This document shows, in pieces, positions 2,576 to 52,125 of a DNA stretch of 53,341 nucleotides. The notes under the pieces are model-generated. The model made no database searches. It was not told where the DNA came from and was given only the letters and a program-made list of their open reading frames with translations. The stretch's first letter is position 1. Each line of letters starts with the position of its first letter. Position numbers and translations under genes: made by a program. The stretch comes from a virus: positions 1-53,341 of IMG/VR virus record IMGVR_UViG_3300047323_000682. One strand, 5' to 3'.

Positions 2576-3445
2576 CTAATCACCACAAAAACAATCGATG
2601 TCTTCAGCAAGATACTCGAAATCGAAGTCAGTCTGCCGGGAGCGCTGCTCGGCAGACCAGCCCATCGTCTTATAGTCAGCTCGATCCTGTCGGAAGACCT
2701 GGCCGAACCTTTCTTCAGTACCTGACCACCAGATGACCCGCGACGGGTCTTCCATGATGGTCTTCACCAGTTTCCCTTCGTTCTTCTTCCAGCAGAGGTC
2801 GCAGTTACCGAAGTCTGAATCCATACCCAGGTCGAAAGGCTGAGCTTTCCAGAACTCGGCCACGTCTACTTTGGTAATGCCAGCGATGTAGGAAGGGCAG
2901 AGGTTATCCCAGCGGGTACTGCCGCGCTCATTGGCAGCCATCATGCGGTGGTAGCGCTTCGGCTCGTCGTAGCGGATGCCGACAACGCAGTCCCATTCGG
3001 TATATCCCAGGGCGCGCATGTGCTTCTCGCCGATCTTCACCTTCAGGTAGGCGGTGCACATATTGTTGGAGAAATTCGGCAGCACCGGCGGCAGGTTCTT
3101 TTCGGCCTTCCGGTACGCCGCGTAGTACTCGAGCATCATCGTGAACGGTTCGCCGTTTCGACTGGCCGTTTCGAAGTCCACCAGCTTGTACCAGGGCGCA
3201 TCGTCCGGCTGCCCGTATGCTCGGCACCACTCCATCCAAACGATGTTCACGTTCCAGCGTTTGGCGATTTGATCGATGAAGACCAGCGTCTCTTCGCGCT
3301 CCTTGCCGGTGTTCTGGAAGAACAGATGGACGTTCGACGGAAGGGTGCCGCCGTGCGCCTCGAGGATCTTGTAAACCATGTGCCCGCTGGTGCGGCCACC
3401 GCTGATGCCGATCTGGGCCGGGCCCGTGATCATATAGGGATTCAT
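2576..3445 (-). CDS. PP-loop ATPase, phage PAPS-reductase-like
   Basis: 289 residues of the adenine nucleotide alpha-hydrolase (PP-loop) superfamily, phage phosphoadenosine phosphosulfate reductase-like branch. The nucleotide-binding PP-loop SGGRTSGHM is at residues 15-23, followed by HLFFQNTGKEREETL and VVGIRYDEPKRYHRM. Cysteines lie in NNMC, NCDLCWKKNE and the extreme C-terminus DCFCGD and could carry a metal cluster. Superfamily members activate substrates by adenylation, in sulfate reduction, tRNA thiolation or DNA phosphorothioation; which applies here is unknown. Start at 3445 follows TGGAG. Transcribed with the leftward early genes but separated from them by the antisense DUF2971 gene. 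Confidence 0.8.
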   Translation of the reverse strand: MNPYMITGPAQIGISGGRTSGHMVYKILEAHGGTLPSNVHLFFQNTGKEREETLVFIDQIAKRWNVNIVWMEWCRAYGQPDDAPWYKLVDFETASRNGEPFTMMLEYYAAYRKAEKNLPPVLPNFSNNMCTAYLKVKIGEKHMRALGYTEWDCVVGIRYDEPKRYHRMMAANERGSTRWDNLCPSYIAGITKVDVAEFWKAQPFDLGMDSDFGNCDLCWKKNEGKLVKTIMEDPSRVIWWSGTEERFGQVFRQDRADYKTMGWSAEQRSRQTDFDFEYLAEDIDCFCGD

Positions 3446-5709: not shown

Positions 5710-5948
5710 AATGCCTCCGCGAGTTTCCGCAGCGCCTTGCGCTCAGCCGCGGTGATGGCGGGGCGCCGGCGTTTGAGGACCGTTTCGGGATCGATTTTTG
5801 TCGAGCGCTCCGCCGGTAGCGGATTGATTTGAGCGGGCTCGGTTCTGGTGAACCGTCCGCCCGCGGCCAGGTGCTGTTCGACCTGGCTGGAAAGATCCAG
5901 CGCTTTATCGCGCCGGTACTCGATGTCGTATTTCAAGTTGCTGATCAT
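5706..5948 (-). CDS. Small early protein downstream of exonuclease
   Basis: 80 residues: a helical start (NLKYDIEYRRDKALDLSSQV), a polar middle and a basic helical tail (RPAITAAERKALRKLAEAL). Linked by ATGA overlaps on both sides (5945-5948 and 5706-5709). Not recognised. Tight coupling to the exonuclease suggests stoichiometric co-expression with the recombination pair. Confidence 0.65.
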   Translation of the reverse strand: MISNLKYDIEYRRDKALDLSSQVEQHLAAGGRFTRTEPAQINPLPAERSTKIDPETVLKRRRPAITAAERKALRKLAEAL

Positions 5949-7600
5949 GCGGCCACCTTCACCAGCCTCACGCCGGCCATGCTGAATTTAGAACCCTGGT
6001 CCGCGACAAGTGCATCGAGCGCTTCCCAGTTGACGGACAGAACCGACAGCGGGCATTGGCCGTAAGCCACAGCCTTTACCAACGCTTCCAGATCGAAGAC
6101 TTCAGCCTGCAAATTCACAGACTGGGTGACTGGCGCCGCCGCCGATTTGGATGCCTGTTGAACTGCGGCAGCAGCTGTTACTGGAGCCGGTGTTACAGCG
6201 GGGGCGGCTGTCACGACCGGCGCAGGCTCCACAACAACCGCAGCGGCCTTTTTCGCCTTGTCTTCGTCGGCGATCCGCTGCAGCTCTTCCTCACGAATCC
6301 GCTTGCGAGTGGCTTCGGCTTTCTCTTCCTCCGCTTTCTCATGTTCCGAGATCCGGAATTTGATCAGTGTCACCAGGTCGTCATTAGCTTTTGTCACCAA
6401 CTGCTGGATGTCGCTGAAAAGGAACGCGTGATCGGCGGCCAACTCGGCCAGACTGGTCAGGTTCAGGCGAATGCTGTCGGCGGCTTGGCTGGCATCGATT
6501 TTCGCCCGGGCCAGTTCGGTATCAACCGCATCCTGCAAACTGGCGATTGTGCGTTTGTTCTTCATGGCGCCGACGAAGTCTGCGGTCACCGCCGGCAACA
6601 CGACCTTGCCCAAGGTCTTATTGATCGCGGCAACGTGATCTGCCAGCGCCTGCTCGGCCTTCTGCTTAATGTTGGTTTTGACCAGCAGTTCCTGCGCCTT
6701 CACCAGCTTGTCGACTTTCAGGCGAGTTTCGCGGGCATGTGCTGAGACGCGATCCAGAGACGAGAACAGTTCGTCGATGGTTGCGGTTTGCGACAGTGCC
6801 TGCTTCTTCGCGGCGGCGACGGCTTCTTCGACATCACCGCACCATTTCACGGCCTTCTTGGCGTCCGCGAAGTCTTGGTCTGTGGTCAGGGTGGTTTTTA
6901 CCGAGTCGATAACCGCCAGCGCAGACTGCTCGAAAACCTTCAGGTTGCTCGCGGTGACCATGCCGGTGAGTTCGATTCGAAGCGCCGGCAGCTCGTCAGG
7001 CGCTTTGCCGACAATGATCGACGGCGTATCCGCCACCACGTGCCCGCCGAGGTCAGCCTCGAACTGTTTCCAGCCTTCGACCAACTGCTCTGCGCGGCCA
7101 GCGACCGGGCGATATTCCATGCTGACGAAGTTCTCGGCAGTACCATCGGAGCAAACAAAAATCACGCGTTCGGCGCCGCTCACCAGCAGCTGCTGCTCAA
7201 GCTGCCAGTAGTAGTGGGGAGCGAGGTCTTCGGCCTTCACCTGGGCGACGAGTGATTCGTTCCAGAGTTTGTGCTCAAACAATGTTTCGCCGAGCATCGT
7301 CGCGCCGTCCATGGAGGCCAGTAGATTGCCCTTTGTGCCCACGACGGGATAAAGCTCTTCGCCGATCTGCACTTCCACCAACGGGCGGGCAAGCGCCTCA
7401 GTGGCGTGTCCTTTATCGAAGATGTACTGCTGAGAGGGCGTGACGTCCGGCGTGATGCCAGTCTTCTTGAGCGTAAGCAGTTCGGTGCGAGTTTGATACT
7501 TCGACGCGCCCATCATTGCCGGGGCTTCCGAGGCGGTGAAGTACTTGGCGCGCAGAGCGTGCCACTCGGCGGAGCCTTGAGCTACGTTGTGGATTTTCAT
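5945..7600 (-). CDS. YqaJ-family phage exonuclease, long form
   Basis: 551 residues. The N-terminal 200 are a YqaJ/lambda-Exo type nuclease: QGSAEWHALRAKYFTASEAP at residues 8-27, GHATE around 64-68, and the metal site D98 (SMDGAT), E109 and K111 (LFEHK), then WQLEQQLLVSG. It resects double-strand ends 5' to 3' and hands single strands to the annealing protein. Residues 200-440 are largely helical and coiled, with an Ala/Pro/Val-rich linker at 450-490. This extension is much longer than the basic 220-residue lambda Exo. Start at 7600 overlaps the stop of the annealing protein gene by ATGA, fixing the start and coupling the pair. Confidence 0.9.
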   Translation of the reverse strand: MKIHNVAQGSAEWHALRAKYFTASEAPAMMGASKYQTRTELLTLKKTGITPDVTPSQQYIFDKGHATEALARPLVEVQIGEELYPVVGTKGNLLASMDGATMLGETLFEHKLWNESLVAQVKAEDLAPHYYWQLEQQLLVSGAERVIFVCSDGTAENFVSMEYRPVAGRAEQLVEGWKQFEADLGGHVVADTPSIIVGKAPDELPALRIELTGMVTASNLKVFEQSALAVIDSVKTTLTTDQDFADAKKAVKWCGDVEEAVAAAKKQALSQTATIDELFSSLDRVSAHARETRLKVDKLVKAQELLVKTNIKQKAEQALADHVAAINKTLGKVVLPAVTADFVGAMKNKRTIASLQDAVDTELARAKIDASQAADSIRLNLTSLAELAADHAFLFSDIQQLVTKANDDLVTLIKFRISEHEKAEEEKAEATRKRIREEELQRIADEDKAKKAAAVVVEPAPVVTAAPAVTPAPVTAAAAVQQASKSAAAPVTQSVNLQAEVFDLEALVKAVAYGQCPLSVLSVNWEALDALVADQGSKFSMAGVRLVKVAA

Positions 7601-8421
7601 GCTGTGTCTCCGTCGAGGGCCTTGAGGTTGGTGATTTTTTCTTTCTGCGCATCGGTCAGCACATATTTGCTGCTGATGGTCGCGATCAGGTGTTCTGGGC
7701 TTGTCCGGCCCGCGTCAATCAGCGGCTGCCACTTGACGAGGTTCTCTTCGAGCAATTCGTCTGCGTAGGATGGAAGCGCGTCAGGCTCAGCATCAGGTCG
7801 TGTGTGCTGTTGCGGGCTGACGTCGCGCGCCGCCTCCTCGAAGGTCTTGCCTTCCATTTCGTCAGCCGTAGGCGCTGATCCCACTTCTGGAAACGCCTTG
7901 CGCAGCGCCTGAGCCTCAGCGCACTTGGCGAGCTGAGCAAAGGCACGGCGCTTCCACATGGCGTTAGGCGCGGCGCTATCCTTGCTGGCGGTTGCATAGT
8001 TTTCGAGCCAGCGCTCGTTGGCGGTGAATTCGGCGACAAGCCCGTTGGACATTTGGCGCTTCACGGTCACTCGGCACCATTCCGGGTAGGTGACGTCAAC
8101 GCCTGACAGCTTCGCAGTAATGGGCGGGCCGTATTCAGGGTCGCTTATTCCCGCGTATTGACCGGTGCGCGCCGCCTGAATGCGGTACAAGCCGATGCCA
8201 GGCATCACCGTGTCCTGCATCTTTTTCGCTTTCGGGTTCCAGATCGGGACGATGTGCACCGGCTTCAACATTGGGTCCAGGTGCGCGGCCTGGCAATAAG
8301 CCAAAACCATCACGACTGAATTCTTTTCTGCGCCGGGGTAGAGGCTGCTACTCAGCACTTCAACGAGCGCGGCCTCGGACATGGCAGGCGCGTTGTCGTC
8401 CTGCTTCATTACTGCGGACAT
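7597..8421 (-). CDS. bet: Bet/RecT-type single-strand annealing protein
   Basis: 274 residues of the phage Bet/RecT family, the annealase partner of the exonuclease gene it overlaps. Recognisable stretches: VMVLAYCQAAHLDPMLKPVH, MPGIGLYRIQAARTGQYAGI, WCRVTVKRQ and MWKRRAFAQLAKCAEAQALR followed by AFPEVG, the typical core. The C-terminal 80 residues are acidic and probably contact single-strand binding protein. The protein should promote pairing of phage DNA ends and recombination during replication. ATG at 8421 follows AAGGAACTGTC; a second ATG at 8409 is possible. Confidence 0.92.
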   Translation of the reverse strand: MSAVMKQDDNAPAMSEAALVEVLSSSLYPGAEKNSVVMVLAYCQAAHLDPMLKPVHIVPIWNPKAKKMQDTVMPGIGLYRIQAARTGQYAGISDPEYGPPITAKLSGVDVTYPEWCRVTVKRQMSNGLVAEFTANERWLENYATASKDSAAPNAMWKRRAFAQLAKCAEAQALRKAFPEVGSAPTADEMEGKTFEEAARDVSPQQHTRPDAEPDALPSYADELLEENLVKWQPLIDAGRTSPEHLIATISSKYVLTDAQKEKITNLKALDGDTA

Positions 8422-10464: not shown

Positions 10465-10493
10465 AGTTAACCATCGGTATATTTACACGTCAA
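10465..10493 (-). promoter_or_regulatory. Putative leftward early promoter PL
   Basis: On the minus strand TTGACG (10493-10488) and TTAACT (10470-10465) are spaced by 17 bases. Both elements lie within or touch the two operator arms at 10467-10480 and 10493-10506, so repressor bound there would block it. It points toward the leftward early genes. The -10 is weak, so the exact hexamer is uncertain. Confidence 0.5.
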
Positions 10494-10506
10494 TACCGAT
10501 GGTTAA
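10467..10506. promoter_or_regulatory. Left operator: two inverted repressor sites
   Basis: TTAACCATCGGTAT at 10467-10480 and its exact reverse complement ATACCGATGGTTAA at 10493-10506, separated by 12 bases. Each arm is itself a partial palindrome (TA.C.AT.G.TA), as expected for a dimeric helix-turn-helix repressor. The same motif recurs three times in the cI-cro intergenic region, so this is the left operator of the CI-like repressor. Confidence 0.8.
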
Positions 10507-10543
10507 TTTATTTTTAGGCGACGTAGGATATGCTTTGCGAAAA

Positions 10544-10575: not shown

Positions 10576-10890
10576 ATGGCGAAGGCGAAGAAGACAGATA
10601 AGCCAGTAGCGCGACAGGAAGTAAGCGGGATAGAGCGGCTTGGTCTGAGAGTCTCGTCAATGATCAATCACCCGGTTGCGCAGATTCAGCGCTGGGTGAC
10701 GATCCACCGCCTGGAAACGGACGGAGATCGGGAGTGGGAGGAGTTGATGGGCCTGCTGTCCGAGGCGGACGGCATAGACATGACGTTCAACGACGATGAG
10801 TCGGTGACGCTGAGGTGGGAAGCTACTGCAAATCGATCGACAGAAGCTTCAGAGTATGAGTGCCAAGCAGAGGCAGAATCTCCATTTTGA
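10576..10890 (+). CDS. DUF1654 family protein
   Basis: 104 residues with the Pseudomonas-specific DUF1654 signature: GIERLGLRVSSMINHP, VAQIQRWVTIHRLETDGDRE, then EELMGLLSEADGI and DESVTLRWE. The family's biochemical role is not known to me; it is common in Pseudomonas prophages. ATG at 10576 has GGAGGG 8-9 bases upstream. A LexA box precedes it, so expression after DNA damage is likely. It is divergent from the leftward early operon. Confidence 0.8.
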   Translation: MAKAKKTDKPVARQEVSGIERLGLRVSSMINHPVAQIQRWVTIHRLETDGDREWEELMGLLSEADGIDMTFNDDESVTLRWEATANRSTEASEYECQAEAESPF

Positions 10891-11139: not shown

Positions 11140-11165
11140 AAAGCCGCATTTAGCGGCTTTTTTTT
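11140..11165 (-). terminator. Intrinsic terminator after 888-residue gene
   Basis: Stem AAAGCCGC (11140-11147), loop ATTTA, stem GCGGCTTT (11153-11160), with an A-run before and a T-run after, so it can work in both directions. Its right flank overlaps the TAA of the long minus-strand gene (11164-11166). Confidence 0.9.
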
Positions 11166-13830
11166 ATTTCATAGAAAGTAAGGTTAGCTCAAAGCCGTGA
11201 TGCTGCATGCTATATTTTCCAATTTTTACTATAACCCAGTCGCCTTCTTCTACCGTCGTGAATAGGCCAAGAACATTGGTTCCCTGATTGGACTTCTTGA
11301 CAAGTCCTCGGCCATTTAAACCGAACTCTACAAAAAAACCATAGTCTTGAACGGAAACAATCTGTGAATCTACCTCTGTTCCCTCCGGGTATTCTAATTC
11401 AAATTTAACATGTGCCTTAAATGCATGGTCATTTTCTGAAGCTCTATCGACAAATTTTACCAGTTCTCCTATGTTTAGAAGATTGACCTGCTTTTCATTG
11501 TTTAGAACTTTTGCCGGGCCTAGAAAGTATTTTTCGTGATAGCTTTTCAAATAGGTAGTTAGAATGGAACTGTTGCTTATGGCGGTCTGTCTGGTATCAA
11601 CTTTGAATGGACCCTTTCCAATCAAGTTGTCCGCAATTTTTCTGGCGGACTGATTTTCTCGGAATAAGACATCTTCAGACACTGTGGATAAATAATCAAT
11701 GTTGTGTATTAAATCTACATGTATCAAGCCGGCGGGAGAGATCGCTATTAAGTCGTCATGCGAAATTTCATGGGATTGCGCTTCGGACAATATACAGCCA
11801 GCCTGGATTAGCTTAACGATTTCCTCAATTGCTCTCTCGCTGGAGTGGCCTGCAGCCTGCAACGCCTCGAGGAGCGAACTGACCTTGTGAAAGCCCATAG
11901 TTCGATTAGGGCCGTATAGCTTTGCAGAGCTCTGTAGCCACTGGAGAATTGTAATGCGTATAAATGGGTCCGGGAGTGCGTCGTCTTCCTGAGCAAAGAA
12001 CATGTTCTTTATGTGTGACTCGCTGTCGGTGTAGTATTTTCTCTTGCCTTTTAATAAGATGCGGGCAACGAGATGTTTGGGAAGCTTATATTCACCCAAG
12101 CTCTGTCTCGTTTTCAGCAGCTCGTCTTCTCCAATGTGCCCGCTTTTGCAGAAATCTAAGAGAATCTCGAGTCCTTTTCGAATATTTCTGCCCGCCAATC
12201 CTGTAATTATTCGTTTGAAGAAGTAATCTTGAAAAAGAGACGAAATCATCGACTGTAGGTATGTGGCTACTTCCGCCCTTGAGCACTCTACTTTCATTTT
12301 GTTTGGAAGATAATAAGTGAATCGAGAATTTTGCGACTTTATTTCGCGCAAGGCATAATGTAAGCGTTTGTAGATAACTCGCTCTAGCAATGGCGGATCA
12401 ATGCGAAAGACCAAGTCTTTAATTACGGTATCCAGGGGTGGCTGATCTTGATACTGATCGTATGTGGTATCCCTCAATGGTAAAAATACCATGCATGGGA
12501 ACGAGTCTTTAAGCCAAGATGCTACTTCGAACATTAATAGCTGGTCGTCTCTGCTCCGTTTGTCACAGTTGTCAAGCACAACTGTTAGGAGTTTTTCGCT
12601 TCCGGTACACAAATAGTTAATCAAGCCATTGAGCGTGGCAAATTGGTCTCTTTGTAAGGCGTCAAGTTCCGCGAATATTGCGTCTATATATTTTTCTGAA
12701 TCTTTTGGGTATAGAGCTGCTTTTCCTCTTTCTACGCGGCCTATTTCTACCGAGTAAATTTTCTTCAATAACTCTAGAGTGTCAAAATCCGTATCTGGAT
12801 ATGATGCCTTTAATAACGAAATGCATTGATTTATTACCCAGTCATAAATCAATTCTCTAGTGAGTGGTGCTTTATTAAGGTTGATGTTTATCCAGAGGGT
12901 ATGATCGGTTACCGATTTAGGTAATGCTTCAAGACGAAGGTAGTCAGTGAATGTAGACTTTCCAGAGCCTACGCTTCCAATAAGGAGGCAGATTTCATTT
13001 TTTATTCTACCCAAGTTCGCGAGTTGATCGACAATTTCCTTGGGGGCACCCGTGTCATGGATAGGACGAGCGTCGACAGCTGTGAAGGGGAGGGCTGCGC
13101 GTATAATTTTATCTATGGGGGCGATATGTGATTGCTTACGAGTGGACGTTACATAGGCGTTGTGCGCGATCGATGCTCTGTCATCGAGAGAGTCGGGATT
13201 GAATAAGTATTTATATTCGATGGAAACGTTCGCGCCGAAGGAATTTTCACCTACCGTTTCGTTTGCGGTTACTTTTCCACCCAGCATCTGAGTTGGTTTG
13301 AAGTAACGCGCGGTGCTTTTAATTGATTTTAATAACGTGCTTGCTTTTTCTGTAATCGCTTTCTTGGACGCCAATCCTAGTAATTTAGTAAACTCCGGAT
13401 TGAGATTGTCAAAATTCTCTACCTTAAGAAATATTTCTGGTTCATCCTTGTCCCAATAACTAAGGTGGAAATCAACTCCATCTGTCGCGATTATTAATTC
13501 GCATGGATTAATGTTGCGTGGATATGAAGCGTTAATCTCTGTTGCGTACAGCCTGGCCTCTCTTAAGGCTTCTGAGAGATTTTGCCCAGGAGTCTTAGCT
13601 TCGATAATCATTGCTGGTAGCCCGTCAATGATTATGGCGTAGTCCGGGTAATAAAGCTTCTCCTTGGCACCTTTATCAATCTTAAGCTTTCTGATATCTG
13701 CTTTGGTTCGGATATCCGAATCATCAAATCCTAGCCCGTCAGGGGTCTGGGTTGACAAAAGTTTGTAGATGATTTTTTGTTCAACGTCACTTTCAGTTGT
13801 TGCTTTTATCCCTTGAAAGATACTGCTCAT
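11164..13830 (-). CDS. Nuclease-NTPase-S1 fusion, putative phage exclusion/defence
   Basis: 888 residues. (1) Residues 10-130 resemble the type I restriction HsdR N-terminal nuclease: a Glu-rich first helix (ESDVEQKII), PDYAII with D63, and IIEAKTP with E77 and K79, a PD-(D/E)xK core. (2) Residues 275-480 are a P-loop NTPase: Walker A GSVGSGKST at 285-293, Walker B LLTVVLDNCD with D420 and D423, and a sensor-like FLPLRD. (3) About 620-720 looks like a winged helix. (4) Residues 815-888 match an S1/OB fold (EGTEVDSQIVSVQDYGFFVEF, then GDWVIVKI). This plan (effector, STAND-like ATPase, sensor-like C-terminus) is that of antiphage proteins such as Avs, but the C-terminal half lacks obvious TPRs and ends in S1. 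It lies downstream of cI in the same orientation, like rexAB, and is AT-rich. Function is inferred. Confidence 0.8.
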   Translation of the reverse strand: MSSIFQGIKATTESDVEQKIIYKLLSTQTPDGLGFDDSDIRTKADIRKLKIDKGAKEKLYYPDYAIIIDGLPAMIIEAKTPGQNLSEALREARLYATEINASYPRNINPCELIIATDGVDFHLSYWDKDEPEIFLKVENFDNLNPEFTKLLGLASKKAITEKASTLLKSIKSTARYFKPTQMLGGKVTANETVGENSFGANVSIEYKYLFNPDSLDDRASIAHNAYVTSTRKQSHIAPIDKIIRAALPFTAVDARPIHDTGAPKEIVDQLANLGRIKNEICLLIGSVGSGKSTFTDYLRLEALPKSVTDHTLWININLNKAPLTRELIYDWVINQCISLLKASYPDTDFDTLELLKKIYSVEIGRVERGKAALYPKDSEKYIDAIFAELDALQRDQFATLNGLINYLCTGSEKLLTVVLDNCDKRSRDDQLLMFEVASWLKDSFPCMVFLPLRDTTYDQYQDQPPLDTVIKDLVFRIDPPLLERVIYKRLHYALREIKSQNSRFTYYLPNKMKVECSRAEVATYLQSMISSLFQDYFFKRIITGLAGRNIRKGLEILLDFCKSGHIGEDELLKTRQSLGEYKLPKHLVARILLKGKRKYYTDSESHIKNMFFAQEDDALPDPFIRITILQWLQSSAKLYGPNRTMGFHKVSSLLEALQAAGHSSERAIEEIVKLIQAGCILSEAQSHEISHDDLIAISPAGLIHVDLIHNIDYLSTVSEDVLFRENQSARKIADNLIGKGPFKVDTRQTAISNSSILTTYLKSYHEKYFLGPAKVLNNEKQVNLLNIGELVKFVDRASENDHAFKAHVKFELEYPEGTEVDSQIVSVQDYGFFVEFGLNGRGLVKKSNQGTNVLGLFTTVEEGDWVIVKIGKYSMQHHGFELTLLSMK

Positions 13831-13959
13831 TGGGTCCCACCGCTTGAGTGATATACGACCATATCGAGAGGCATACCGGACACGTGGCCTACGACGACGG
13901 TATTATTTGTTCTGAGCATTTCACTATCGCGGCTTTCTTTCAAGCCAGACTTGGCACGA

Positions 13960-14036
13960 TTAAACCAAGTGTGCGTTCCACACCAGAAGCAAGCGCGCCT
14001 GGATGTAGGTCTCGTCAGCCACCAGCTGTTTTGTAC
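13960..14036 (-). pseudogene. Remnant of a second repressor C-terminus
   Basis: Read on the minus strand this encodes ETYIQARLLLVWNAHLV and a stop, nearly identical to the last 17 residues of the intact repressor (DTYIQARVLLVWNAHLV at 14299-14349). The DNA copies match over about 45 bases with scattered changes. No upstream repressor frame remains, and the sequence overlaps the end of the 67-residue gene. It is the severed 3' end of a related cI allele, probably left when the cargo next to it was exchanged. Confidence 0.8.
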
Positions 14037-14038
14037 CT

Positions 14039-14242
14039 TTAATGGAGAACCCTACGACTTTCGCCAATCCTGATCCGGTCCAGGGCCCGGTTTAACGCAT
14101 CCAAGGCATCAAGAAGGGCTTTCGCCTCGGCCTCTCGACCATCTCCCCAAAGGCGTTCAGCCATTTTATTCAGGGCTTGGATAGAGCGCTCGATTTCAGC
14201 AGCAGTCACCGCAGCCTGACTTTCCGGCTTTTTCTTCGGCAT
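14039..14242 (-). CDS. Small helical protein downstream of cI
   Basis: 67 residues: basic start MPKKKPESQAAVTAAEIERS, then continuous amphipathic helix (IQALNKMAERLWGDGREAEA, LLDALDALNRALDRI). ATG at 14242 has AGAGG at about 8 bases. It follows cI by 56 bases in the same orientation and is probably made in the lysogen. Family not recognised. Its stop lies in the repressor remnant, so its own C-terminus may have been altered by the recombination. Confidence 0.65.
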   Translation of the reverse strand: MPKKKPESQAAVTAAEIERSIQALNKMAERLWGDGREAEAKALLDALDALNRALDRIRIGESRRVLH

Positions 14243-14298
14243 TGTCAGAACCTCTGCAGCGCCCGCACTCTGGGCCAGATGCTCAGCCCACAACCCAG

Positions 14299-15180
14299 TT
14301 ACACCAAGTGAGCATTCCACACCAATAGCACTCGCGCCTGGATGTAGGTGTCTTCCGCCCTGATGGTCTGCGGTGGGTGCCGAGGGTTGTCCGAGAGCAT
14401 CGTGATCTGCTCGTCGCCCAGCCATTGGAGCCGCTTGATATAGAGGTGCCCCTCCCAGGAAAACATGTAAATCCCATCGCCCGTGAACTCGCGAATGCTG
14501 ACGTCGACCAAGAGCGGGTCGCGATGCTTAATTGTGGGCGCCATCGACTGGCCCCAGCCGGTCACCATCTTCAGATGGAAGTGCTCTTTGAACTCAACGC
14601 CCATCTCGCGTAAATGCTGGGGGCTGACGCGTACGTCCTGAAACATCTCGGGATAGTCGTGTGGGATCTGCCCGCCACCCATTGCCGCGCGGACGTCGTA
14701 GTGGGCGATCCACACTTCGTCGCCCACCACGCCAGGTCGGTAGTAGTCGAGTTCGATGACGCCGCCGCCTTCTTCAGCCTCTACGACGGCAATTAGGCGT
14801 TTGCGGGCTTCATCAGAAAGGTTTTTTCCGCTGCGACTCAGCATGTCCCTGAGGGCATCAGCCGCTGTTGCGCCGGAGGCATCGCCAGCGCTATGCGATT
14901 TCGTAACCGGGGCTCCGGTCAGGTTTCGAATTTCTTCGGCCAGGCGAGGGCTGAAAGCCTCCACCGGCTCGTGAATTAAGCGCGCCAATACTGCTGCAAA
15001 TTGAGCGTTTAGCGGATTTATACCTTTGAAATACAGGTTCACAGCAGCCGGTGTCATGCCGGCGGCATCAGCGATTTTCTTTTGGCTGAGCTTTAGCTCG
15101 TTCTTCTTCGAGAGGAACAGAGCGTGCGCAGCCTCGCACTCCGCCATTCGGTCTGGAGGCAATATTCGTTTCTTAGTCAT
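14299..15180 (-). CDS. cI: CI-like S24 phage repressor
   Basis: 293 residues. N-terminal XRE-type helix-turn-helix about residues 30-55 (KLSQKKIADAAGMTPAAVNL). C-terminal S24 (LexA-like) autopeptidase with nucleophile S212 in GQSMAPTI and general base K249 in GHLYIKR. A cleavage linker would lie near YDVRAAMGGG (163-170), but the usual Ala-Gly pair is not exact there. It maintains lysogeny by binding operators in the divergent intergenic region and at PL, and should be inactivated by RecA-stimulated cleavage. ATG at 15180 has no ribosome site; a promoter -10 only 9 bases upstream suggests a leaderless mRNA as for lambda PRM. A TTG at 15198 is an alternative start. Confidence 0.92.
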   Translation of the reverse strand: MTKKRILPPDRMAECEAAHALFLSKKNELKLSQKKIADAAGMTPAAVNLYFKGINPLNAQFAAVLARLIHEPVEAFSPRLAEEIRNLTGAPVTKSHSAGDASGATAADALRDMLSRSGKNLSDEARKRLIAVVEAEEGGGVIELDYYRPGVVGDEVWIAHYDVRAAMGGGQIPHDYPEMFQDVRVSPQHLREMGVEFKEHFHLKMVTGWGQSMAPTIKHRDPLLVDVSIREFTGDGIYMFSWEGHLYIKRLQWLGDEQITMLSDNPRHPPQTIRAEDTYIQARVLLVWNAHLV

Positions 15181-15188
15181 CGCGCGAA

Positions 15189-15217
15189 TGTATACCAACG
15201 GTTAAAAATAAGAAGAA
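15189..15217 (-). promoter_or_regulatory. Putative repressor-maintenance promoter
   Basis: On the minus strand TATACA (15194-15189), preceded at 17 bases by TTCTTC (15217-15212). Transcription would start within a few bases of the cI ATG, consistent with the missing ribosome site. Operator copy 1 (15191-15204) overlaps its -10 region, allowing autorepression. The -35 is weak, as expected for an activated promoter. Confidence 0.45.
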
Positions 15218-15253
15218 ACCATCGGTATTGATTAAAAATTAACAGATGGTTAA
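15191..15253. promoter_or_regulatory. Right operator: three repressor/Cro sites
   Basis: Three copies of the operator seen at PL: TATACCAACGGTTA (15191-15204, two changes), AAACCATCGGTAT (15216-15228) and TTAACAGATGGTTAA (15239-15253). Centres are about 24 bases apart. The consensus TTAACCATCGGTAT is semi-palindromic. The arrangement between divergent cI and cro mirrors OR1-OR3 of lambda. Confidence 0.8.
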
Positions 15254-15256
15254 TAT
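15228..15256 (+). promoter_or_regulatory. Putative rightward early promoter PR
   Basis: TTGATT at 15228-15233, 17 bases, TAATAT at 15251-15256, about 30 bases before the cro ATG. Operator copies 2 and 3 overlap the -35 and -10, so bound repressor would exclude polymerase. Confidence 0.65.
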
Positions 15257-15285
15257 CGGCCTCATCTACAACCCGAGGCTTGATC

Positions 15286-15480
15286 ATGAACGAGACCCCC
15301 CTCGACAAGTTTGTTGCTGAAAAAGGGCAGTCCGAGGCCGCAAGGCTTCTTCGTGTGACCGCCCCGGCAATCCACAAAGCGCTAAGCGCTAAGCGAGACA
15401 TTCGCGTCCTTGAGCTTCCTGACGGCAGCTTTCAGGCGCAAGAGCAGCGCCCGTTCCCCTCCCAAAAATCAGCCGCCTAA
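15286..15480 (+). CDS. cro: Cro-like repressor
   Basis: 64 residues: MNETPLDKFVAEKGQSEAAR, then LLRVTAPAIHKALSAKRDIR, a compact helix-turn-helix of the Cro family (residues about 14-38), and a polar tail. First gene of the rightward early operon, divergent from cI over the three-site operator. It should repress cI transcription and later PR. ATG at 15286 follows GAGG at 7-8 bases. Confidence 0.85.
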   Translation: MNETPLDKFVAEKGQSEAARLLRVTAPAIHKALSAKRDIRVLELPDGSFQAQEQRPFPSQKSAA

Positions 15481-15515
15481 ACCAGTCACGCAACCCCAAA
15501 AGCGGAAGTGAACCT

Positions 15516-15719
15516 ATGGCGTACGACGACAAAGCGCATCGGCACGAACACCAGGTGAAGGTGCGGCTCGATGACGAAGTCTTCCAGGAGCTCAAGGACG
15601 TTGCTCGTGACATGAAGCTGCAACACAGCGTGCTCAGTCGGGAAATCATCGAAGCGGCGCTTGAGGTCAGGCGAGCCCTGGGCGAGTTGCCGTTTGAGCT
15701 TGAGAAGCGACAGGCCTGA
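15516..15719 (+). CDS. Ribbon-helix-helix-like small regulator
   Basis: 67 residues. HEHQVKVRLDDEVFQELKDV followed by ARDMKLQHSVLSREIIEAAL has the beta-strand-helix-helix pattern of Arc/MetJ DNA-binding proteins (residues 10-55). ATG at 15516 follows GGAAG. Early rightward operon between cro and the next small gene; likely a minor transcriptional regulator. Confidence 0.7.
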   Translation: MAYDDKAHRHEHQVKVRLDDEVFQELKDVARDMKLQHSVLSREIIEAALEVRRALGELPFELEKRQA

Positions 15720-15740
15720 AAAGGCGCAGGAGGGGGATTT

Positions 15741-15932
15741 ATGCCCAGTGCAGAAGTGGAGCTCAGGAAGACCGCAACAGAAGAACTGGCGCGATGGGCG
15801 ATGGAGATCGGCATTACCCCTGACGCATTGGCTTCCGAGCTTGTGCGAGTGGCAATGCCGGGGCTCAAGAAGGCGATCGGCGACACCGCGAAGCCTGACA
15901 GCAACGTACTCGCCTTCACCCTCAAGCGATGA
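15741..15932 (+). CDS. Small early regulator-like protein
   Basis: 63 residues, helical (VELRKTATEELARWAMEIGI, LASELVRVAMPGLKKAIGD). It may pair with the ribbon-helix-helix protein just upstream, but no family is recognised. ATG at 15741 has a strong GGAGGGGG ribosome site. Confidence 0.6.
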   Translation: MPSAEVELRKTATEELARWAMEIGITPDALASELVRVAMPGLKKAIGDTAKPDSNVLAFTLKR

Positions 15933-15948
15933 GTTCCGCCCCTTATTA

Positions 15949-16018
15949 GGGACCAGAGAGTGTGCAGGGCAGGCCGGTAACAGTTTCCAGATTTGGTGCT
16001 GGTCCCTGTTTCGGGACC
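15949..16018 (+). promoter_or_regulatory. Competing hairpins in rightward leader
   Basis: GGTCCC (16001-16006) and GGGACC (16013-16018) form a hairpin with a six-base loop. The upstream GGGACCAG (15949-15956) can instead pair with CTGGTCCC (15999-16006), so the two structures are mutually exclusive. No T-run follows. The location between two early genes would suit an RNA switch or processing site; no function is established. Confidence 0.4.
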
Positions 16019-16099
16019 GGAAGCAGAAAGGGTCATGGGTTCATCCCTGATCAGTAGTAGCGATTTGGCATGAACCCAGAGTACGAAAGAGAGAGCCCT

Positions 16100-16717
16100 A
16101 TGAGTACGTCCAGTTCAAGACACGCCGTTCAAACCCGTGACCAGGTGCTGGTCGCTCACGCAGCGAACCAGATCGCTCGAACCAGTTTGAGCCAGGACGA
16201 CTTCGCCCAGGCCCTGAGCCGTGAGCTGCACCTGGCTTTCCCGGAAAAAGCCATCTCCAAAGAGGTACCTGACTTCGCCGCGCTCACCGCGCAGAACGAC
16301 GTCGGTGAATTCGTGAAAGCAACCGGCCGATGGCTGAAGCGTGTTCAGCGCTGGCTGTCCGGCGACCAAGACATGCCGTCCTGGCTCGAAGAGTCGTGGG
16401 TCAACGCGCTTGAGCCTGAATTCCGTGACCACTGCGTCAACGAATTGGCCGGCCGCCACGGCCTGATCGGTGCCCGCCAGATGACAAGCGATCAGTGCGC
16501 GAACAAGAGCTTCGGTGCGCTGATTCGCGCCCTGGGTGATGTGATCGATACAGGCAGCGAGGTGTTTGACGACCAGGTGATGTGCGAGGTCGATTTGCCC
16601 CACCTGCCTGCATTCGCCGCGCAGTGCCGCCAAGTTGAAGCGCGGGCAGGGGAGTTGGGCCGGAAGGCGGAAGCACTGCTTGTGAAGCATCGCCCGAATT
16701 TGAAATCCATCGCCTGA
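16100..16717 (+). CDS. CII-position helical early protein, possibly YdaT-like
   Basis: 205 residues, mostly helical, with a central patch EFVKATGRWLKRVQRWLSGD and PSWLEESWVNALEPEFRD. The pattern (residues that place a Trp-rich helix before an ALEP/LP stretch) recalls YdaT-type prophage proteins that sit in the cII position, but similarity is by eye only. It lies in the cII position after cro. ATG at 16100 has GAGAGAG upstream; an earlier ATG at 16070 lacks one. Confidence 0.65.
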   Translation: MSTSSSRHAVQTRDQVLVAHAANQIARTSLSQDDFAQALSRELHLAFPEKAISKEVPDFAALTAQNDVGEFVKATGRWLKRVQRWLSGDQDMPSWLEESWVNALEPEFRDHCVNELAGRHGLIGARQMTSDQCANKSFGALIRALGDVIDTGSEVFDDQVMCEVDLPHLPAFAAQCRQVEARAGELGRKAEALLVKHRPNLKSIA

Positions 16718-16728
16718 ATCCCAGGCAC

Positions 16729-16753
16729 AAAAAAGCCGGGATTGCGGCCCGGC
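16729..16753 (-). terminator. Terminator-like hairpin before rha
   Basis: GCCGGG (16735-16740), seven-base loop, CCCGGC (16748-16753), with an A-run at 16729-16734. It is a proper rho-independent terminator only for minus-strand transcription; in the plus direction no T-run follows, so rightward early transcription should mostly pass. Confidence 0.55.
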
Positions 16754-16782
16754 TAATTCATTAACACTTGATGAGGTCGATT

Positions 16783-17589
16783 ATGCAGAGCCAACTCAAT
16801 TCAAGCAATACCTCTCCCAATGTCGCGACACGTTTTGTTAATTCCGAAAACGTGTCGCGTACCACGATGTCCTCCCGCGAGATCGCCAAGCTCACCGGTA
16901 AAGCGCACAAACACGTGCTCGCCGACATTCGCTCAATGTTGAAAGAGCTGGAAATCGACTGGGCCGATTGTTCGGCTCAGTATCAAGACAGCACGGGTCG
17001 GTCACTTCCGTGCTTCAACCTCAATCGCGAGCTGACAGACACACTACTCACCGGCTACAGCGCAAAAATGCGCCTTGCCGTTATTCGGCGCTGGCATGAA
17101 CTGGAGAAGCAGCAGGGCGCCCGCGAGCAAGTCTTTCTGAATGGCACCAAGGTCGTTGGCGAAATCGCCATCATGGAGTGCTTCACGCGCCTCCTGAAGC
17201 CTGCGGCGTCCTGCCAGATGGCCATGCTGACGAAGATCGCCCAGAACAACGGCCTGGACCCGAAGTTTCTCCCGGGCTACGCCGTCGACGCTGCGCCAGA
17301 CGCTACTGGCGGTTCCTCAATGCCCACCAGGTCGGCCACAGCCTTGCTCAAAGATCACGGCATTCGTTACGCGCCGGCGGCATTCAACCGTGCACTAGAA
17401 GCCAGGGGCTTTCTCACGCAGCTCCAGCGCAAGAACTCCAAACAGGAGATGGTTCCGTTCTGGTCGGTGACCGAGAAGGGCCTGGCCTACGGCAAAAACC
17501 TCACCAGCCCCCAATCCCCCCGCGAGACGCAGCCTCACTGGTACGTCGATCGCTTCCTCGAGCTGGCCAAACTGGTCGGGAAGGCCTGA
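16783..17589 (+). CDS. rha: Rha-family phage regulatory protein with antirepressor-like tail
   Basis: 268 residues. The N-terminal Rha domain spans about residues 25-110: MSSREIAKLTGKAHKHVLAD, IRSMLKELEI, FNLNRELTDTLLTGYSAKMR, AVIRRWHELE. The C-terminal part (MLTKIAQNNGLDP, LLKDHGIRYAPAAFNRALEA, FWSVTEKGLAYGKN) resembles the KilA/antirepressor C-terminal module. Such proteins modulate phage growth in IHF-deficient hosts or act as antirepressors. ATG at 16783 has GAGG at 6 bases; the ATG at 16771 lacks a site. It abuts the replication gene by one base. Confidence 0.85.
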   Translation: MQSQLNSSNTSPNVATRFVNSENVSRTTMSSREIAKLTGKAHKHVLADIRSMLKELEIDWADCSAQYQDSTGRSLPCFNLNRELTDTLLTGYSAKMRLAVIRRWHELEKQQGAREQVFLNGTKVVGEIAIMECFTRLLKPAASCQMAMLTKIAQNNGLDPKFLPGYAVDAAPDATGGSSMPTRSATALLKDHGIRYAPAAFNRALEARGFLTQLQRKNSKQEMVPFWSVTEKGLAYGKNLTSPQSPRETQPHWYVDRFLELAKLVGKA

Positions 17590-49596: not shown

Positions 49597-49619
49597 GAAA
49601 AAAACGCCCCGAAGGGCGT
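49597..49619 (-). terminator. Terminator of the RES gene
   Basis: ACGCCC (49604-49609), CGAA loop, GGGCGT (49614-49619), with a seven-A run at 49597-49603 that gives the U-tract on the minus strand. It touches the stop of the RES-domain gene. Confidence 0.85.
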
Positions 49620-50506
49620 CAAGTAAGCTGATTACTATGTAGTTTTTGAAGTCCCGGCAGGGGGCCACCTTTGTGTTTGGTGCTGAATACATGCTCAGTA
49701 TTGTTTTTATCTAAAATACAAGAGCACATGATATTTATATATTGCTCGCTTTTCGTTTTTTGAAGCTTTCCGATGACTATTATTTTTGCATCTAGATATT
49801 CTTTTGCAAATTCTCCCTTGAAGCAGATGTTGACTCCAGTAGGGTCTGCAACCGATTTGTAACTCCAACCTATGGTTTCTGGGTAGTCGTAGTAGTCTTT
49901 CGTGATGATGTCCGAGGCAAGATAGATGTGTTCTCTTTCGGATCCTGAGTCTCTGGAAAATTCCGAAACGAGGAAGTCCTCTAGAGCTTCGATCTTTGCT
50001 CTGCGAGAAATATTAAGTTCGTTTTTGTTATCCTGCGACAGTCCGATACTGTTCAATCTGCAGCTTGATTTAGATTGATAAATAATCAGTGCGAACAGAT
50101 CGCCGTCTTTAATCCTAGCTTCAGCCAAGGCAGTAGCAGGGGCTGTTGCGGTGTATAGCAGAGCTTCGCCTTTTCTGTTCACACGCCCTGACTGGACTCT
50201 TTCCGAAGGAGGCATCCATGCTGAGCCTAGTTCTAGCATCGATTTAGGGTTAAGCGGGTTTTCGGTTGGATCAATCCAGCGAACTCTGTAAAAAGCTGTT
50301 TCTGTTGGAATGTTTAGGATGTTAGCCTGCATCGCGAACGACTGATAACCGTTGGAGTACTCTGTACATAGTACGTCCATTATTCGGTTCGAAAGCTGCT
50401 CTCTTGTTAATCCTGAAAATTTTGAAGATCTGTATTTTTTAATCTTCTTTTTAAAAAGTTTTTTATCTGTTGCGTCAAGATGTGTAAGGAGTTCATTGTT
50501 AATCAT
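49619..50506 (-). CDS. RES-domain protein, solitary (cargo)
   Basis: 295 residues, AT-rich. A Lys-rich helical N-terminal 50, then a RES-type domain: FYRVRWIDPTENP with R74/R76, SERVQSGRVNRKGEALLYTA with R108, ATALAEARI with E129, and a later IYLASDI. RES toxins of type II systems degrade NAD+ by phosphorolysis and have about 150-230 residues. This one is longer and no Xre/DUF2384 antitoxin gene is adjacent, so it may be a cargo effector controlled otherwise. No clear ribosome site before ATG 50506. Assigned by motif pattern, not by search. Confidence 0.7.
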   Translation of the reverse strand: MINNELLTHLDATDKKLFKKKIKKYRSSKFSGLTREQLSNRIMDVLCTEYSNGYQSFAMQANILNIPTETAFYRVRWIDPTENPLNPKSMLELGSAWMPPSERVQSGRVNRKGEALLYTATAPATALAEARIKDGDLFALIIYQSKSSCRLNSIGLSQDNKNELNISRRAKIEALEDFLVSEFSRDSGSEREHIYLASDIITKDYYDYPETIGWSYKSVADPTGVNICFKGEFAKEYLDAKIIVIGKLQKTKSEQYINIMCSCILDKNNTEHVFSTKHKGGPLPGLQKLHSNQLT

Positions 50507-51448: not shown

Positions 51449-51949
51449 CTACTCTTCGAAAGCTTTGACTGTCCGTGGAAAATCTTTCGGGTCAATGCGG
51501 GACGGGTGGAGATATCCACCACCTATGTTACGGCGTAGACAATGCAGCTTAATTCTAGGGATGTCGCGTATTAACTCAGACAATCTTTTTTCATGCCCGT
51601 TTCCGCAGGCGATGACAACGACATCCGCGCCAGCCATGATCTTCCGAGCATGCTGTTCGTTCAAGTCATCTGCCTGGCTGTTGTGGATCACACCGGATGG
51701 GTCTGTCGAGTAGTTCGGATAGAGATTTAGAATGTGGAAGCCGCCCCACCCCCAGTCCGCAGCCAAATTACCGCATTTGAAGACTGTCATGTCGTTCCGA
51801 ATCTCGTCAGCCATCGATGGGTTCGCGCACAGAAAGGCACCTATTTTTTTCGTTTTATCCCATACGCGGCTAAGAACGAAACGATAGTTGCCACAGTCGG
51901 ATGTGAGCGCGACCGACTCGATGATTGATTCGTGTTTGATAATGTTCAT
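51449..51949 (-). CDS. DUF1643 domain protein (cargo)
   Basis: 166 residues matching DUF1643: YRFVLSRVWDKTKKIGAFLC, ANPSMADEIRNDMTVFKCGN, GWGGFHILNLYPNYSTDPSG, DVVVIACGNGHEKRLSELIR. The family is of unproven function and is common in mobile elements. Minus strand between accessory genes and int, bracketed by the imperfect repeats at 51134 and 52126. ATG at 51949 taken because family members start near here; ribosome site modest. Confidence 0.8.
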   Translation of the reverse strand: MNIIKHESIIESVALTSDCGNYRFVLSRVWDKTKKIGAFLCANPSMADEIRNDMTVFKCGNLAADWGWGGFHILNLYPNYSTDPSGVIHNSQADDLNEQHARKIMAGADVVVIACGNGHEKRLSELIRDIPRIKLHCLRRNIGGGYLHPSRIDPKDFPRTVKAFEE

Positions 51950-52003
51950 CAGAGGCCTAAAAGTAGAATCGCGGTGTAATTCTGCTCCCATGCAGAGATG
52001 CAA

Positions 52004-52033
52004 AGCCCCGAAGGTTCGCGGCTTCGGGGCTTC
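52004..52033. terminator. Strong hairpin between DUF1643 and int
   Basis: Perfect 11-bp stem AAGCCCCGAAG (52004-52014) and CTTCGGGGCTT (52023-52033) with an eight-base loop; CTATTTT follows in plus, TTTGC in minus direction. Probably terminates integrase transcription leaving the int gene and insulates the DUF1643 unit. Confidence 0.75.
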
Positions 52034-52125
52034 TATTTTCGCCTCCATCCCTTAAATGCTGGCGAACGTGGCGGCGAGATTACCAGCGATGTCTCCGTAA
52101 TTCACTACTGCGATAGGTCGATTAA

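Follow-up and report, generated by a model that had tools for sequence, protein, structure and literature searches.

A severed repressor-gene end as the probable scar of recombination at the cargo boundary of a temperate Pseudomonas phage

The viral DNA analysed here (IMG/VR record IMGVR_UViG_3300047323_000682; 53,341 nucleotides, all of which is referred to as the window) carries, downstream of its intact repressor gene cI, a second and severed cI 3′ end that stands ahead of an 888-residue cargo gene. We interpret this repeat, with a probability of nearly nine in ten, as the scar left when two temperate Pseudomonas phages of the same operator class recombined once, ectopically and with almost no homology. 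Such an exchange is phage gene-swapping of a known kind, with an unusually clear scar and an uncharacterised cargo, and it leaves the general picture of phage mosaicism unchanged. It nevertheless allows an accessory-gene exchange step in a prophage immunity region to be placed within a few bases and oriented, which is rarely possible, and it bears on the question of homologous versus illegitimate joining in phage mosaics.

A repeat search over positions 12,500–17,500 returned one strong direct repeat, in which positions 13,960–14,020 match positions 14,299–14,359 over 61 nt at a spacing of 339 (51/61 bases identical, 84%). The near-copy of the repressor C-terminus about 340 bases away that had been noticed earlier is therefore real; the interval of 13,960–14,036 assigned to it stands only in part, the cI homology being confined to 13,960–14,020, whereas bases 14,021–14,036 are the flank of the upstream 67-residue open reading frame (ORF). 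On the minus strand, the remnant, a severed end coding for ADETYIQARLLLVWNAHLV and a stop, reads (A)DETYIQARLLLVWNAHLV and the intact repressor ends in (A)EDTYIQARVLLVWNAHLV, a stop codon closing both. Ten of the 20 codons differ between the two, seven synonymously and three with a change of residue, and the resident gene has A-E-D-T (EDT-type) where the remnant has A-D-E-T (DET-type). Since both types are present among the intact cI alleles of other phages, the remnant is, as judged by these codons, a piece of a second cI allele and not a copy of the resident gene. The best allele matches to it reach 52/61 (L091 and L152), the exact allele (ARLLLVWNAHLV) being absent from the viral contigs searched, and an ungapped scan of both strands found no site with at least 33/61 matches elsewhere in the 53-kb window. 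When the last 150 nt of each cI were scored against their own downstream DNA in 102 cI loci, the window scored 41, with a next best value of 17 and a mean of 12.5. A duplicated cI end in phages without cargo, which would point to an old and unrelated duplication, was also sought, and none of the 101 loci other than the window has a second cI end.

The DNA on the cargo side of the remnant belongs with a different phage. Positions 14,016–10,453 form one colinear block with positions 2,871–6,431 of L083 (86.8% identity over 3.6 kb), running from inside the cI 3′ end through the spacer, the 888-residue gene, the DUF1654 gene, and the operator region. Loci L083 and L023 both represent contig IMGVR_UViG_3300019776_000887, in which the 888-residue gene begins 132 bases after the cI end. 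The intergenic DNA from the cI end to the 888-residue gene (13,831–13,959, minus strand) is common only to the window and L083, and its 19-base piece TGGCTTGAAAGAAAGCCGC was found, among viral contigs, in the L083 contig only. The original prediction called for a phage whose cI ends in the remnant allele and is followed directly by the 888-residue gene: the gene order was found, and in a colinear context, but the exact allele is missing, the cI of L083 ending in ARVLLVWNAHLL, unlike the remnant. With this colinear arm, the proposal that the 3′ end left over from another cI allele at the cargo boundary marks a recombination scar is well supported.

The other arm is formed by the 67-residue ORF (p67; 14,039–14,242, minus strand), a helical ORF with 73 relatives in viral contigs. 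It lies directly after a cI of the same family, contiguous as in the window, in L088, L091, L050, L087, and L092, none of which has a second cI end, so that cI-p67 is, across these loci, an ordinary gene order. Positions 14,242–14,018 are colinear with L094 4,377–4,601 at 85.3% identity, a match that covers p67 plus 21–24 bases past its stop. The native 3′ flank of p67, with which the left arm ends (14,018–14,038, minus strand), agrees with L094 in 18 of 21 bases at the homologous position (P about 3e-8), and the L094 flank diverges after GGC. Two p67 copies share one slot in L088 (4,334–4,537 and 5,116–5,319), and a truncated copy occurs in L007 (7,358–7,486); we read both as further signs of turnover beside cI. 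A second family of small helical ORFs (LKRDLQGVASDLKWSAVEL..., e.g. L088 4,775–5,029, L034 4,924–5,160, and L154 6,518–6,757) sits in loci with cI or p67, several members adjoining cI, and is weakly similar to the 67-residue family (E about 6e-4 to 0.07).

The two arms are thus colinear with different phages of undisturbed order, L083 for one and L094 together with the cI-p67 phages for the other. They meet at a GGC common to both parents (14,018–14,020), where the left homology ends at 14,018 and the cI homology starts at 14,020. Three bases are shared there with the available parents, and up to six if the left parent resembled L099 (GGCTGAG); only relatives of 85–87% identity were found for either arm, which places the junction and its microhomology within a few bases. 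A degenerate search for the exact junction found no second case in 2.9 million viral contigs. In the proposed event, parent A would have had the order cI-A, 888-residue gene, DUF1654, with no gene between the first two, and parent B would have had cI-B followed by p67, the latter parent being expected to be a cI-p67 phage with the flank AGGTACAAAACAGCTGGTGGC. DNA of parent B about 21 bases past p67 would have been fused, at the common GGC, to the terminal 61 bases of cI-A, leaving the last codons of cI-A and the downstream cargo behind the intact cI-B and p67. The earlier view of a cargo swap by recombination between cI alleles survives in its scar and foreign cI end; the crossover, however, appears to have been ectopic, outside the resident cI, and not in register. 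Similarly, the 888-residue gene appears to have arrived with the severed cI end as supposed, but the DNA lying between the two cI ends is p67.

With so few bases common to both parents at the junction, joining is taken to have been illegitimate or microhomology-mediated; no site was located for a second crossover, if one took place. The phage encodes a RecT annealing protein and a YqaJ exonuclease (5,945–8,421), which could have made flanking exchanges, while the join itself lacks the homology that they need. De Paepe et al. (PMC3945230) argue that phage mosaics form more often by relaxed homologous recombination than by illegitimate joining, which speaks against this mechanism. As at the illegitimate-recombination joints of mosaic phages (a debate summarised in PMC3945230), relatedness in the window switches sharply at a gene border where hardly any sequence is shared. 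Joints of this kind mostly leave nothing behind, whereas this one retains a shortened copy of a conserved gene, by which it can be dated and oriented.

Four other histories of the repeat were weighed. The window order could be the older one, from which a loop-out involving both cI ends would have removed p67 to give L083. Recombination between the direct repeats yields exactly the L083 layout, and the L083 cI end is about equally distant from the resident and remnant copies (44/61 and 46/61). The severed cI end would nonetheless still require a source with cI-A ahead of the 888-residue gene, and 888-type genes stand directly behind repressor-like genes in three further contigs (L084 6,001–8,673, L085 5,995–8,655, and L086 5,974–8,655), whose repressors are unrelated and lack the 3′ end of this cI. 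A repressor followed by an 888-type gene is therefore the simpler ancestral order, and we consider loop-out quite improbable. It is scarcely credible that the resident cI 3′ end was duplicated locally in tandem and that the copies then diverged, although the common strand, the distance of 339 bases, and the 84% identity would fit. This reading is rejected because of the DNA past the remnant, which continues into the cI-to-888 spacer of L083 and not into the downstream DNA of the resident cI, and because of the allele type: with 52/61 matches, other alleles resemble the remnant at least as well as the resident one does (51/61), and synonymous codon differences predominate (7/10), as between functional alleles. 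An assembly chimera of two phages from one sample comes to mind because the window is an IMG/VR virus record; it was discarded as equally hard to credit, given that the join shares about 3 bases, far under any assembler overlap, and that the cI ends share no exact stretch longer than 17 bases. Some islands insert at gene 3′ ends and rebuild them, and a mobile element or site-specific system acting in this way at cI would leave a duplicated gene 3′ end beside the inserted DNA; this least credible explanation was discarded, since cI-end repeats are absent from the 101 loci of differing cargo, the slot holds no recombinase gene, and the remnant lies with the 888-residue gene on the far side of p67 instead of at both ends of an element.

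Under ectopic recombination, the hybrid may have been tolerated because one complete repressor was kept together with matching operators on both sides. The resident CI-type repressor (293 residues; 14,299–15,180, minus strand, the start being taken as the ATG at 15,180, where the ORF program starts at a TTG at 15,198) combines a helix-turn-helix with an S24 peptidase domain (Pfam HTH_3 and Peptidase_S24, the latter at 9e-17; PHROG transcriptional repressor). It shows 91–95% identity to L003 and, with its EDTYIQARVLLVWNAHLV end, represents the left-parent (B) allele. A motif search placed operator-like repeats at 15,192–15,253, between cI and cro (15,280–15,480, plus strand; Pfam Cro 1.4e-15), and an operator-like pair, AACCATCGGTAT and ATACCGATGGTT, lies upstream of the DUF1654 gene at 10,467–10,516, where the DNA matches that of the cI promoter at 79%. 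Within the window, the exact motif occurs only at 10,469, 10,493, 15,192, and 15,217, and operator-like motifs thus flank the interval from cI to DUF1654 on both sides, from which it follows that DUF1654 is probably under CI repression. The L083 motifs are of the same class, and CI is 91% identical to L083 CI over its N-terminal 70 residues (56% over residues 71–140), suggesting that the hybrid probably keeps a working immunity circuit.

The far border of this interval is the DUF1654 gene itself (10,576–10,890, plus strand; Pfam DUF1654 1.2e-24), which converges on the cargo. At most related loci, an opposite-strand DUF1654 gene is found 0.4–5.8 kb past cI, and the DNA in between varies among relatives and includes many unrelated ORFs; the named phages VW-6S and vB_PaeS-D14O have the same layout. 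Several cargos other than that of the window match defence models, namely a P4 beta protein in L066 (1.7e-154), PDC-S42 in L041 (5.5e-35), AriA/Gabija-like ATPases in L058, and a HipA-like candidate in L019; matches to the defence library were obtained for these other cargos only. In the slot of L041 and its relatives L036, L037, L052, and L071, the 306-residue PDC-S42 candidate has small membrane-like ORFs behind it (7,001–8,209 in L041), a layout reminiscent of RexAB. By its layout, the interval from cI to DUF1654 is a variable accessory slot analogous to those of lambda rexAB and bstA.

The lambdoid slot between cI and N, which holds rexAB in lambda and bstA in BTP1, has been called a hotspot of mosaic diversity (PMC8585504). 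As in that slot, the cargo here is variable, stands behind cI, and is co-oriented with it between two repressor-controlled operator regions, which in the window are operator-like, with both p67 and the 888-residue gene downstream of cI on the cI strand. Relatives of the 888-residue gene follow other repressors directly, which is also the position of bstA in its hosts (PMC8585504). Unlike the lambdoid slot, this one is bordered at its far side by an operator and DUF1654 pointing to the cargo instead of N, one of its joins is visible as a severed cI end, and its nuclease-ATPase-S1 cargo is unrelated to RexAB or BstA. The RexABpp defence genes of the Pseudomonas putida prophage P1 likewise follow a CI-type repressor and share its operon, with intervening small genes that defence does not require (PMC12894663). 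The order cI-p67-888 has the same arrangement, with a small gene between repressor and cargo, although RexABpp is a two-gene membrane-acting system.

The cargo gene (11,164–13,830, minus strand) encodes a protein with a predicted HSDR_N-type PD-(D/E)xK nuclease domain (Pfam PF04313, 1.3e-9, 38.6 bits vs a cutoff of 25.1), a P-loop ATPase region, and a C-terminal S1 domain (1.1e-4). It falls into PHROG 14719 (1.1e-126), to which no function is assigned there, and D63, E77, K79, and the P-loop are invariant in 14 relatives. The HSDR_N domain with its conserved D and E-x-K recalls HsdR of type I restriction systems; unlike HsdR with its SF2 helicase motor, the protein has no match to a helicase family, carrying instead an AAA/ORC-like ATPase region and the C-terminal S1 domain. 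Its score against the NCBIfam hsdR model is 11.9 bits, far below the cutoff of 284.55 for a full-length HsdR match, and neither hsdM nor hsdS accompanies the gene, which is bordered by p67/cI and DUF1654. The AlphaFold model (mean pLDDT 75, pTM 0.46) provides evidence at the level of domains only; its best Foldseek matches, all with low TM-scores, are ORC/Cdc6 AAA ATPases, S1 proteins, and RdrA, which suggests, with low confidence, an AAA/ORC-like ATPase core. PADLOC has no model matching the protein, searches of PADLOC, NCBIfam, and PDB sequences gave no function beyond HSDR_N and S1, and no description of it was found in the literature. The gene has few relatives. A genome scan for them gave one betaproteobacterial MAG, plasmids carry distant ones, and the phage collection has none. 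No cI relative was found in 274 genomes drawn from the class of that MAG.

In lysogens, the 888-residue gene would be read through from the cI promoter, and by analogy with other genes of the slot it is probably an accessory, anti-phage nuclease-ATPase, with a role as a lysogen-expressed defence gene being plausible. A bolder proposal, which we put forward tentatively and with somewhat less than even confidence, is that the 888 family (PHROG 14719) provides prophages with a so far undescribed defence system made of one gene, which moves from phage to phage together with the repressor end, the scar showing its move under a new repressor with immunity specificity kept. This repressor-linked nuclease-ATPase family may accordingly be viewed as a defence candidate in a rexAB-like slot of Pseudomonas phages.

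Elsewhere in the window, an ORF at 2,576–3,445 has a weak PAPS-reductase match just under the Pfam cutoff. Between the tail end of the genome and the integrase lie ORFs for a RES-domain protein (49,619–50,506; score at the Pfam cutoff) and for a DUF1643 protein (51,449–52,048), a region that is possibly a second cargo site.
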